Origin: Halolamina sp. CBA1230
GTDB taxonomy: Archaea > Halobacteriota > Halobacteria > Halobacteriales > Haloferacaceae
Length of the DNA stretch: 64,000 bases
Reading direction: 5' to 3'
Assembly (NCBI RefSeq): GCF_002025255.2
Contig: NZ_CP054587.1
Span: 1,116,001-1,180,000 of the forward strand
This document shows positions 2,293 to 5,230 of the stretch, one piece after another. Position 1 is the stretch's first letter. Each line of letters begins with the position of its first letter. The notes under the pieces were generated by a model. It ran no database searches. It was not told where the DNA came from and saw nothing but the letters and a program-made list of their open reading frames with translations. The translations under genes were made by a program, and so were the position numbers.

Positions 2293-2981
2293 GTGTTCAG
2301 ATAAGCTGGTTCCATGCGAAGGCGAACGCTTGAAACCAATTTTCGACGGTGTTTGGTTCGGCGTGACTGAAACAGTTTGAGAACTGGTTGGTTCGTCGTT
2401 TTAGTTCTCGGAAGACACGTTCGACGCTGTTCCGATTACCGTGTTTCTCGTATCTGTAATCGAGGCCGTGTCGATGGAGTGCAGCTTTCAACCAGGCTGC
2501 AGAATCGACGAGAAAGAGTGCGTCATCAACGAGATGTTTGTCGCGGAGTTCAGCGAGGAATATCTCGGTAATCGCTTGATTTCTCGTTGTAGAGAGCTTG
2601 ACGTGCAGGAAGCGGTTCGTTGCAGGATCGACTGCCGCGTACAGCCAGAACCGTTCGTCGTTGAGTTGGATCACGGTTTCGTCAACCGCGACGTGATCCG
2701 GGTTCGCACCGTCGAGGGGCTGTAGATCGGCCTTCTGCACCCAGTTGTGAACGGTCGTGCGACACCGTTCGACACCCAACATATCGAGAACCGAGATGGT
2801 ATCCGAAAGTGATAGTCCAGCCAGATGGAGCCGGATACCGAGCTTCATCGCGGGCTCGGGTGTCGCCTCTCGCTCCAGAAAATCTAACTCGAAGCAGTCG
2901 CTACCTCCGTTGAGGCGGGCGATTTCGAGCATGAACCACTCAAAGATCGTCCCGCCTCACTCTTCATCCTTATCTGAACAC
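2293..2981 (-). mobile_element. IS6-family insertion sequence
   Basis: A 689-bp element carries one transposase gene and is bounded by perfect 13-bp inverted repeats, GTGTTCAGATAAG at 2293-2305 and its complement at 2969-2981. Size and layout fit the short IS6-family elements of haloarchaea. The transposase stop codon lies inside the left repeat. No 8-bp direct repeat is visible at the borders: the left flank ends GCGCGGTA and the right flank starts CGCCCCTC. IS6 elements normally duplicate 8 bp, so the copy may have arisen or been rearranged by recombination. Confidence 0.88.
2297..2932 (-). CDS. IS6-family transposase
   Basis: The 211-residue protein catalyses cut and strand transfer of its own element. 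The N-terminal region contains a helix-turn-helix-like stretch (SLSDTISVLDMLGVERCRTT). The DDE residues are probably Asp84 in VAVDET, Asp143 in LVDSAAW and Glu171 in NSVERVFRELKRR. The C-terminal HAEPNTVENWFQAFAFAWN is the usual tail of haloarchaeal IS6 transposases. The gene is full length and uninterrupted, so the element could be active. Its base composition is lower in G+C than its neighbours. Confidence 0.93.
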   Translation of the reverse strand: MLEIARLNGGSDCFELDFLEREATPEPAMKLGIRLHLAGLSLSDTISVLDMLGVERCRTTVHNWVQKADLQPLDGANPDHVAVDETVIQLNDERFWLYAAVDPATNRFLHVKLSTTRNQAITEIFLAELRDKHLVDDALFLVDSAAWLKAALHRHGLDYRYEKHGNRNSVERVFRELKRRTNQFSNCFSHAEPNTVENWFQAFAFAWNQLI

Positions 2982-3035: not shown

Positions 3036-3188
3036 ATGCCGACGAAGGAGCAGATCGAGGAGGTCGAGACCGGCGACCCACCAGCCGTGAACGCTCGCTA
3101 TCTCTCCACTGAACGAACCGTGTTCACCGAGGAGGGGAACGAGGACGGCTGGATCTCGACGGATCTGACGGTCGATATCCGCCCCTAG
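3036..3188 (+). CDS. small acidic haloarchaeal protein, 50 residues
   Basis: An ATG at 3036 opens 50 codons ending at TAG 3186-3188. The product runs MPTKEQIEEVETGDPPAV, then a central part containing TVFTEEGNEDGWISTDL, and ends VDIRP. It is strongly acidic and has no membrane segment. The pattern of a Val-Phe strand, an N-x-x-x-W turn and a second strand resembles small uncharacterised haloarchaeal proteins of 50-65 residues, but I cannot assign a function. It converges on the dps operon with a 4-bp overlap. A DtxR-like palindrome sits just upstream, which hints at metal-dependent expression. Confidence 0.6.
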   Translation: MPTKEQIEEVETGDPPAVNARYLSTERTVFTEEGNEDGWISTDLTVDIRP

Positions 3189-3730
3189 AGGCTGTCGTCA
3201 GCGAGGTAGCGCTCGACGGTGTGGGCGTCCTGTTCGATGGTGAGTAGTCCCTCTTCCAGCTCTTCTGCGGTGCGCTCGTCGCCGACCTCGCGGGCGGTCT
3301 CGATCGCCTCGCGGAACGTCACCGCGAGCGTGGCGTAGCCGTCGAGGTCGCTCGAGAGCCCGTCGCGCAGCGCGTACACGTCGCCACCCTCGATCCGCAT
3401 CGGCGCGTGCTCGCGGATACCCATCGGTCCGTTGACCGGGACGCCGCCCAGCGCGTGGACGCGGATCGCGAGCTCGTCGGTCAGATCGCTGAGCCGGTCG
3501 GCCTGTGCCTCCCACCGCTGTTCGATCTGCCGGGACTCCGCGCCTTCGACGGTCCAGTAGCGTTTGCGGAGCTGGTTGAACAGGATGTACAGCCCCGACA
3601 GGCAGCGGTTCACGTCCTCGATCACCGCGGCGGCCGCCTCGGGGTCGAGGCGGACCTCGTTGTCGCCGACGGTGCCCCACTCGCGGCGCAGTTCCTCGTC
3701 GGCCGGGCGGCGGAGATGGGGCGCACTCAT
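3185..3730 (-). CDS. Dps-like ferritin superfamily protein lacking ferroxidase residues (third of three)
   Basis: The 181-residue protein aligns along its length with the DpsA encoded two genes upstream. It keeps RYWTVEGAES, the ALGGVPV turn and the final DAHTVERYLADDSL. Ferroxidase positions are changed: Tyr58 replaces the first His, Glu70 the second His and Ile89 the Glu, with only Asp85 kept. Canonical iron oxidation at the Dps dimer interface is therefore unlikely. It overlaps the preceding gene by ATGA, so the two are probably translationally coupled. Possible roles are a structural subunit of a mixed cage or a DNA-binding shell protein; neither is shown by sequence. Confidence 0.85.
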   Translation of the reverse strand: MSAPHLRRPADEELRREWGTVGDNEVRLDPEAAAAVIEDVNRCLSGLYILFNQLRKRYWTVEGAESRQIEQRWEAQADRLSDLTDELAIRVHALGGVPVNGPMGIREHAPMRIEGGDVYALRDGLSSDLDGYATLAVTFREAIETAREVGDERTAEELEEGLLTIEQDAHTVERYLADDSL

Positions 3731-4299
3731 GGCGCCACCTCCACGAGCGAGTCGTCCTCGACGAAGCGCTCGATCGTGTGGGCGTCGTCCTCGAGCGTCT
3801 CGAGGCGGTCCTCCAGCAGTTCGCGGCTCGCCTCGTCGCCGATATCGGCGGCGGTGTCGATCGCCTCCCGGAAACTCACCGCGAGCGTCGCGTACGCGTC
3901 CAGATCACCCTCGAGCGAGGCACGCAGGCTGTACAGATGCTCGGCTTCGAGGTGGACGGGCGCGTACTCCTGGATCTCCGGCGGCGTGCTGACCGGGACG
4001 CCGCCGATCTCCGTGATACGGTTGGCGACCCCGTCGTCGATCTCGCGGAGGCGCTGGTAGGCGTCGCCGAGGAACTCGGCGACCTCGCCGGACTCGGCGC
4101 CCTCGGCGCTCCAGTAGTGTTTCCGCACGAGATAGAAGAGGTTGAACGTCCCCGCGTGGACGGCGTTCAGCGCCTCCACCATCTCGGCGGCCTCCTCGAG
4201 GTCGATCCGGACCGCGTTCTCGTCGATCGACCCCTGTTCCTGTCGGACGGTCCCGTCCGGCAGGTCGCGGACGAGCCGTCCGCGTTTGGGTTCGGACAC
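3727..4299 (-). CDS. Dps-like ferritin superfamily protein lacking ferroxidase residues (second of three)
   Basis: The 190-residue protein shares KHYWSAEGAESG, IGGVPVS and the DDAHTIERFVEDDSLV tail with DpsA. At the four ferroxidase positions it has Tyr62, Ala74, Asp89 and Asn93 in place of His, His, Asp and Glu. It is thus a second degenerate paralogue, with different replacements from the third gene. A longer, basic N-terminal tail (SEPKRGRLVRD) precedes the helical bundle; in other Dps proteins such tails contact DNA. It starts four bases after the DpsA stop codon and overlaps the next gene by four bases. Confidence 0.86.
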   Translation of the reverse strand: MSEPKRGRLVRDLPDGTVRQEQGSIDENAVRIDLEEAAEMVEALNAVHAGTFNLFYLVRKHYWSAEGAESGEVAEFLGDAYQRLREIDDGVANRITEIGGVPVSTPPEIQEYAPVHLEAEHLYSLRASLEGDLDAYATLAVSFREAIDTAADIGDEASRELLEDRLETLEDDAHTIERFVEDDSLVEVAP

Positions 4300-4302
4300 G
4301 GG

Positions 4303-4836
4303 TTACTCCTGGACGAGCGTGTCGTTCTCGAGGTAGTGGTCGATGTGGTGGGCGTCGTCCTCCAGATCCTCCAGCACCTCGCGGAGGAGTTCGGCCGTCG
4401 CGTAGTCGCCGAGGTCGGTGGCGAGGCCGATATGCTCGCGCACGTTCTCGATCACGTCGCCGTAGCTGTCGAGGTCGGCCTCGAGCGAGTCGCGGATGGC
4501 GTACACGTCCTCGCCCTCGAACTCGACGTAGGCGTGCTCCTCCTGTGCGGCCGGGCCCGAGACGGGCACGCCGCCCAGCGCCTGCGCCCGCTCGGCGATG
4601 CTGTCGGCGTGGTCCTCGAGCGTCTCCGCGGCGTCGCCGAGGAAGTCGTGCAGGTCGCCGGACTCGGCGCCCTCGACGTTCCAGTGGTGTTTGCGGACCT
4701 GGTGGTAGAGCACGTACGTCGACGCCAGGTCGCGGTTGAGCGCGTCGACGATCTGTTCTGCTTTCTCGGTGTCGATGCGGACGGCGTTCTCCTCGACCGT
4801 GTCGGCTCGCTGTCGGGCGGTCTTCTGAGTACTCAT
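4303..4836 (-). CDS. dpsA: DNA protection during starvation protein DpsA
   Basis: The 177-residue protein closely resembles haloarchaeal DpsA, which forms a dodecameric iron-storing shell and protects DNA from oxidative damage. The four ferroxidase ligands are present and correctly spaced: His51 in KHHWNVEGAES, His63, Asp78 and Glu82. The ALGGVPVSGP turn and the DDAHHIDHYLENDTLV tail are also typical. It is the first gene of a three-gene operon of paralogues. A TATA element (TTTATAC at 4864-4870) lies about 30 bases upstream of the ATG, consistent with a leaderless transcript. Confidence 0.95.
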   Translation of the reverse strand: MSTQKTARQRADTVEENAVRIDTEKAEQIVDALNRDLASTYVLYHQVRKHHWNVEGAESGDLHDFLGDAAETLEDHADSIAERAQALGGVPVSGPAAQEEHAYVEFEGEDVYAIRDSLEADLDSYGDVIENVREHIGLATDLGDYATAELLREVLEDLEDDAHHIDHYLENDTLVQE

Positions 4837-4863: not shown

Positions 4864-4870
4864 GTATAAA
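4864..4870 (-). promoter_or_regulatory. TATA box of the dps operon
   Basis: On the minus strand the sequence GATTTATACG places an archaeal TATA element about 30 bases upstream of the dpsA ATG, with a purine-rich GCAAG directly upstream as a possible BRE. Transcription would then start at or close to the start codon. Confidence 0.5.
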
Positions 4871-5230
4871 TCTTGCAGCCGGTATCGCCCGATATCGAGG
4901 GTTTAGACCGGCCAAAACCACCGTTTTTTCGTTTTTGCATTTGGCGGTGAACGGGGCGTTCAGGGTCGCTGTGGCCAGCGCTCGGGACGGTGAATGTCGC
5001 CCGGAACACTAACTGCCAGCCTCATCCCGGGGCTGCGTGCCGCGTCGGCTGGCTAACCCTCGTGCCGGGCGGCCGGGTACGCCCCGGCGGGCGGTCGCTC
5101 TCGCGACGCATGTACCGCGCCTGGGTTCGCCACTCGGTCATCGCTCCCGGACGGGAGTACTCGGGTGGGGACTGAAGGCGCGGAGTGGAGTTACTCGACG
5201 CAGCCGCATAAAGGGAGCGTCGGCCCAACT

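Follow-up and report, generated by a model that had tools for sequence, protein, structure and literature searches.

Proteins of the Dps family are described as homo-12-mers that rely for their function on di-iron sites to which two subunits contribute; in each site the His pair 51 and 63 comes from one chain and the Asp/Glu pair 78 and 82 from the other. The metal sites are located at the two-fold interface, with ligands supplied by both subunits (PMC13168243, PMC11150526), and according to a 2026 paper all Dps possess ferroxidase centres (PMC13319912). Division of labour between subunits has been described among the ferritins: animal H/L ferritin combines catalytic and non-catalytic subunits of one family (PMC12532284) in a 24-mer with the site inside each subunit, while the Shewanella hetero-bacterioferritin SoBfr12 brings two paralogous subunits with divided tasks into a 1:1 cage (PMC12120770), a haem-binding 24-mer in which one subunit kind keeps the active centre. 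Genomes with several Dps paralogues are also known, as in Streptomyces (DpsA, DpsB and DpsC; PMC3613396) and in Nostoc punctiforme (Dps1-5; PMC6675082); the accessible text of these two papers does not describe the paralogues as a linked operon or an obligate pair, and that of the second presents an unusual ferroxidase centre in Nostoc rather than a lost one. Among the haloarchaea the reference protein is the DpsA of Halobacterium salinarum (1moj, 1tjo, 1tk6, 1tko, 1tkp). A Dps may reportedly lack the usual ferroxidase site, as is said of the bacterial Lactococcus lactis DpsA and DpsB, which are known only as homo-12-mers with DNA-binding N-terminal helices; we know of no strict pair or fusion in that case. 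A literature search, covering mainly openly available papers, returned no report of a hetero-Dps or of the two haloarchaeal paralogues considered below.

The window, that is, the whole stretch of DNA analysed (64,000 nucleotides of Halolamina sp. CBA1230, whose closest named relatives are H. rubra and H. pelagica), contains three consecutive minus-strand ORFs at 4836-3185, all of them ferritin-like and here called A, B and C, with the following features:

4303..4836, minus strand: gene A, canonical DpsA; ATG start, 177 aa; ferroxidase ligands H51, H63, D78 and E82 intact.
3727..4299, minus strand: gene B, Dps paralogue without the ferroxidase ligands; GTG start, 190 aa; Y51, A63, D78 and N82, with Y70 and R74 on helix B.
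3185..3730, minus strand: gene C, Dps paralogue without the ferroxidase ligands; ATG start, 181 aa; Y51, E63, D78 and I82, with A70, D71 and S74 on helix B.
4865..4873, minus strand: probable TATA element, AGATTTATA, some 34 nt before the ATG of gene A.
4306..4316, minus strand: GGAG Shine-Dalgarno-like element, read from the sequence, a few bases before the gene B GTG and within the end of gene A.
3734..3745, minus strand: GGAGG Shine-Dalgarno-like element, read from the sequence, before the gene C ATG and within the end of gene B.

The gap between A and B is 3 nt; B and C overlap by 4 nt, the start of C overlapping the stop of B as ATGA. In an alignment of five upstream regions the TATA-like element reads CAAGATTTAT in four of the five Halolamina loci and CAACCTTTAT in L040, and its putative promoter role is suggested by its position, which is the usual one for a haloarchaeal TATA box. 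A plus-strand ORF of 50 aa (window 3036-3188), for which Pfam and NCBIfam gave no match, is convergent with gene C, whose stop codon it overlaps; directly downstream of the operon lies a transposase ORF (window 2297-2932) with a weak match to an IS240/IS6-type DDE domain (PF13610). The sole other ferritin-like protein of the Halolamina genome is distant in sequence and encoded far from the Dps operon (174 aa, with Ferritin and Rubrerythrin matches; L004 1432-1956, G000:C1 near 489,949).

All three products match the Pfam family Ferritin, PF00210 (E = 2e-31, 7e-20 and 8e-13 for A, B and C, respectively), and their best PDB match is in each case the H. salinarum DpsA, 1moj/1tjo (E = 7e-63, 2e-32 and 5e-32), of which gene A is a direct relative; B and C, which share its fold, are 49% and 44% identical to A. 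Chance likeness is excluded by these E-values together with the conservation over 45 loci, and the three-gene Dps operon proposed in a preceding sequence-only reading is confirmed. The same holds for the fold landmarks named there, W52, EGAES, GGVPV and D172/L174 of the end motif being invariant among A, B and C. In the AF2 monomer models both B (pLDDT 77, pTM 0.73) and C (pLDDT 71, pTM 0.70) consist of four long helices, the best PDB matches being Dps chains, with 1moj at the top (TM 0.73-0.76 by query length), and the BC-loop being of low confidence; the models, of moderate quality, support a predicted Dps fold for each chain and have no bearing on assembly. Against the DpsA equivalog NF041388 of NCBIfam, whose cut-off is 170 bits, A, B and C score 279.5, 175.2 and 160.6 bits, so that only A and B pass; since B does so despite the loss of the ferroxidase ligands, the equivalog label is too wide. 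Current annotation conceals the B-C pair, as in the Halarchaeum plasmid pCBA1220-01 (L115 5454-7136), where all three genes are annotated dpsA.

The aligned positions 51/63/78/82 carry H/H/D/E in A, as against Y/A/D/N in B and Y/E/D/I in C, exactly as first read; the inter-subunit ferroxidase centre of Dps (H51, H63, D78', E82') is accordingly complete in A and incomplete in B and C, so that within the B-C pair neither subunit keeps one. The site loss is ancient and conserved: the ligands are invariant in 44/44 A-type rows, whereas position 63 is A, T, G or S and never His in the 44 B rows, and highly variable in the 45 C rows (3.0 bits; G, A, S, V and E being the most frequent), position 82 of C being I/V/L or N, never Glu. 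D78 is kept in both paralogues (43/44 in B, 45/45 in C), and K49, W52, D78, R83 and G89 are retained nearly without exception in both. The paralogues further differ from H. salinarum DpsA in having lost several acidic and His residues that are (nearly) invariant in haloarchaeal DpsA, namely E71, E74, E130, H45 and H167, all of them residues typical as iron ligands or attractors, and the mean net charge of the core per subunit is -32 in A, -22 in B and -13 in C. Because of these additional losses and of the less negative core, B and C seem, on their residues, to have abandoned iron handling as a whole, beyond one site; read in the same way, they do not fit the general statement that ferroxidase centres are present in all Dps. 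C carries an invariant BC-loop motif, GPMG (G94-P95-M96-G97), followed by R99 (window gene C, A-numbering 93-99), and the residue just before the motif is often Cys, being Asn in Halolamina.

B and C were read in 45 loci, belonging to 44 haloarchaeal genomes and to one Halarchaeum plasmid record, after searches of 170 genomes of the family and 392 of the order. In both samples the B-type proteins are set clearly apart from the many DpsA; in the 392 genomes of Halobacteriales they score above 285 bits, whereas no A or C exceeds about 232 bits. A separate search for C was positive in 37/392 genomes, 36 with an intact B and one (G283) with a broken B frame, so that the C-bearing genomes are the same 37 that have B. 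The loci are spread over five families of the order and are patchy within genera, while the phylum sample of 247 genomes yielded neither B nor C outside Halobacteriales. In a tree of 133 sequences B forms one clade (44 rows, SH-aLRT 98) and C another (45 rows, SH-aLRT 99); the two are sisters, parted from all DpsA at SH-aLRT 100, whereas the A proteins that accompany them are not monophyletic (3 changes) and look like ordinary DpsA. Since B and C each form one clade and together stand opposite all DpsA, the tree indicates that one old duplication of a DpsA-like ancestor produced the B/C ancestor, and that a second duplication split B from C.

Gene order is conserved across the haloarchaea: B is always followed by C, the junction measuring between -4 and +6 nt wherever the two genes are separate and intact, and A, where directly adjacent, precedes B (28/45 loci, spacing -4 to +13 nt). 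A is missing beside B-C in 17/45 loci; there is none in the stretch read at L041, L046, L047, L048, L051, L087, L089, L092, L095, L099, L100, L102-L105 and L113, and at L050 a DpsA gene lies about 5 kb upstream of B-C, not adjacent. The indivisible unit is therefore the B-C pair, which never separates (37/37 genomes), and not the trio, although the co-occurrence of neighbouring genes can result from operon inheritance alone. This changes part of the earlier picture: a mixed-subunit cage is still the best explanation, but the trio as its defining unit, with DpsA sites diluted by the paralogues, finds no confirmation; nor does the tight spacing imply a fixed ratio of the three products, since it shows translational coupling and A is not always in the cluster.

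Proteins that occur fused are classically taken to act in contact with each other, and in genomes G043 (L048:3428-4618, minus strand) and G045 (L051:3332-4576, minus strand) B and C are a single ORF joined by a polar linker. Both intact fusions occur in one genus; the fused proteins, 66% identical over 392 aa, are not the product of a single sequencing error, and the linker was gained, as the unfused neighbours have no spacer. In G394, from another family, the B frame passes a linker of similar kind and reaches the C start motif ATSHLRRPGPSH, is interrupted there by an insertion, and the C domain resumes after it in another frame; the insertion (L113 4600-5170) is IS200/IS605-like, about 500 bases long, with CCCACGA...TCGTGGG hairpins at both ends. 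The fusions unite only B and C, never A.

Where the two chains would meet may be deduced from the geometry of the ferroxidase centre rather than from coordinates: because the metal site brings residue 63 together with 78' (63+78=141), the two-fold axis should pass near residue 70.5 of helix B, with residues 67, 70, 71 and 74 lying around it. At positions 70/71/74, B has Y (43), K/Q/R (36) and R (43 of 44 rows), and C has A (44), D (43) and T/S/A (45 of 45 rows); around the presumed axis B would thus be large and basic and C small and acidic, and the opposition of these two surfaces would favour B-C over B-B or C-C. The conservation pattern points the same way. Positions 51 and 63 are conserved in B (0.5 and 0.7 bits), as is the aliphatic residue 82 of C (44/45), while 51 and 63 of C (1.6 and 3.0 bits) and 82 of B (2.2 bits) are variable; in a B-C pairing Y51/A63 of B would oppose D78 and the aliphatic 82 of C, and residues 51/63 of C would oppose 82 of B, so that apparently only this pairing, and neither homodimer, matches a conserved face with a conserved one and a variable face with a variable one. 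By APC-corrected mutual information the pair B82-C63 ranks 9th of 24,649 inter-protein pairs; in a tree-aware test it shows 3-4 independent changes, every one of them concordant with the expectation but too few for significance (effective number of sequences, 18), and the covariation is suggestive only. No general excess of mutual information was found along the antiparallel helix-B diagonal among the other predicted contacts.

The reading that we prefer, to which we assign a probability of roughly 0.6, is that B and C pair with each other as an obligate heterodimer, from which a Dps cage lacking ferroxidase sites is built. In its full form, namely paralogues that would not pair with themselves, a di-iron interface turned into a purely protein-protein one and an alternating 6+6 cage devoid of ferroxidase activity, sometimes made from one fused polypeptide, the proposal has about an even chance of being right. 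B and C would pair across the two-fold interface, which in a normal Dps houses the di-iron site, with B giving a large basic surface (Y70, K/R/Q71, R74) and C a small acidic one (A70, D71, S/T/A74), the former metal bridge being replaced by Tyr51-Asp78' contacts between the chains; six such dimers would build a Dps-type 12-mer, unable to oxidise iron at the usual sites and far less negatively charged. This cage would modulate the iron and oxidative-stress response that DpsA drives; it would do so as a shell of its own that does not mineralise, or by co-assembly with DpsA, as L-type does with H-type animal ferritin. Its most likely role would be that of a shell that does not oxidise iron, or mineralises weakly, and is produced when DpsA is, whether or not A joins the particle. 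Such a system would work much as the H and L subunits do, with the differences that the site concerned is the inter-subunit one of Dps and that here two paralogues together make up the inactive kind; with SoBfr12 the B-C pair would share the paralogous subunits, except that B and C have both lost their active centres.

Some clues to function come from the surroundings of the genes. At L042 (1983-2402), L043 (2239-2658) and L044 (1961-2380) in three genomes, genes for iron/manganese-dependent repressors of the DtxR/MntR type are divergent from the Dps trio and some 370-530 bases upstream of it; they are candidate regulators, and these three loci support a connection with metal regulation. Among the neighbours other than Dps genes, no family recurs in more than 6/45 loci, and only the DtxR/MntR-like one is suggestive. 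The N-terminal tails are conserved, with a near-invariant LVR in B and HLR in C; their mean net charge is -0.9 in B and -1.3 in C, and with tails that are not basic (about -1) neither simple DNA binding through them nor the earlier idea of specialised DNA-binding subunits finds support in this part of the proteins.

Other explanations of the same genes have been weighed. A three-component cage, with A, B and C in one 12-mer and the paralogues diluting complete ferroxidase sites so as to tune oxidation and mineral growth in the manner of H/L ferritin, is unlikely, if a serious contender: where A directly precedes B the three genes probably share one transcript, the E71/E74 face of A is charge-complementary to K71/R74 of B, making A-B dimers possible, and 24-mers of mixed subunits are known among ferritins and bacterioferritins (PMC12120770, PMC12532284), but the loci without an adjacent A, the restriction of the fusions to B and C and the absence of a special clade among the partnering DpsA proteins all speak against it. 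Less probable is that B and C each make a homo-12-mer of their own and have taken on unrelated new functions, such as the binding of DNA, the nucleoid or other ligands, their adjacency reflecting no more than tandem duplication; known Dps proteins are indeed homo-12-mers and the paralogous Dps of Streptomyces act as separate proteins (PMC3613396), yet the strict co-occurrence, the fusions and the non-basic tails disagree, and in a C-C dimer the acids D71-D71' would be poorly matched, even if A tolerates E71-E71'.

Somewhat more doubtful again is a B-C complex that bears a new catalytic or metal site elsewhere and is still an enzyme of iron or another metal. The retention of D78 in both chains, the invariant loop G94-P95-M96-G97 ... 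R99 of C, with Cys just before it in many sequences, and the acidic three-fold position 153 of B (D/E in 34/44) would suit such a site, whereas position 153 of C is variable (E, R, G, V) and the clade-defining residues include no new His/Glu/Asp cluster, except for H105 in B. That the paralogues are decaying or neofunctionalising copies without a maintained role is very improbable. Within Halolamina dN/dS is 0.21-0.43 for B and 0.19-0.33 for C, above the 0.07-0.17 of A, and one insertion-split pair (L113, in G394) and one broken B frame (L114) exist; B and C thus evolve faster than A, yet they are constrained, under purifying selection. Indeed, 43/45 loci are intact over roughly 40-50% divergence, L113 and L114 being the only broken ones, W52, R83, R74 in B, and T77 and D78 in C are near-invariant, and the start spacing and ribosome-binding elements are preserved; on dN/dS, invariant positions and intact loci decay was rejected, and the decaying copies in relatives that the sequence-only reading had envisaged as counter-evidence are limited to two of the 45 loci. 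In G283 a frameshift or an assembly error divides gene B between two frames (L114, about 3886-4728), A and C being intact.

An obligate B-C heterodimer, if real, would be a natural hetero-Dps, the first of its kind, and would clearly break the ferroxidase-centre rule; for engineering it would provide a ready-made cage, of two components or of one fused chain. The pair would extend the mixed-subunit ferritins to the 12-mer class and to the Archaea, and, as a conserved pair devoid of the site, it would show how a metal-bridged interface became a partner-specific one.
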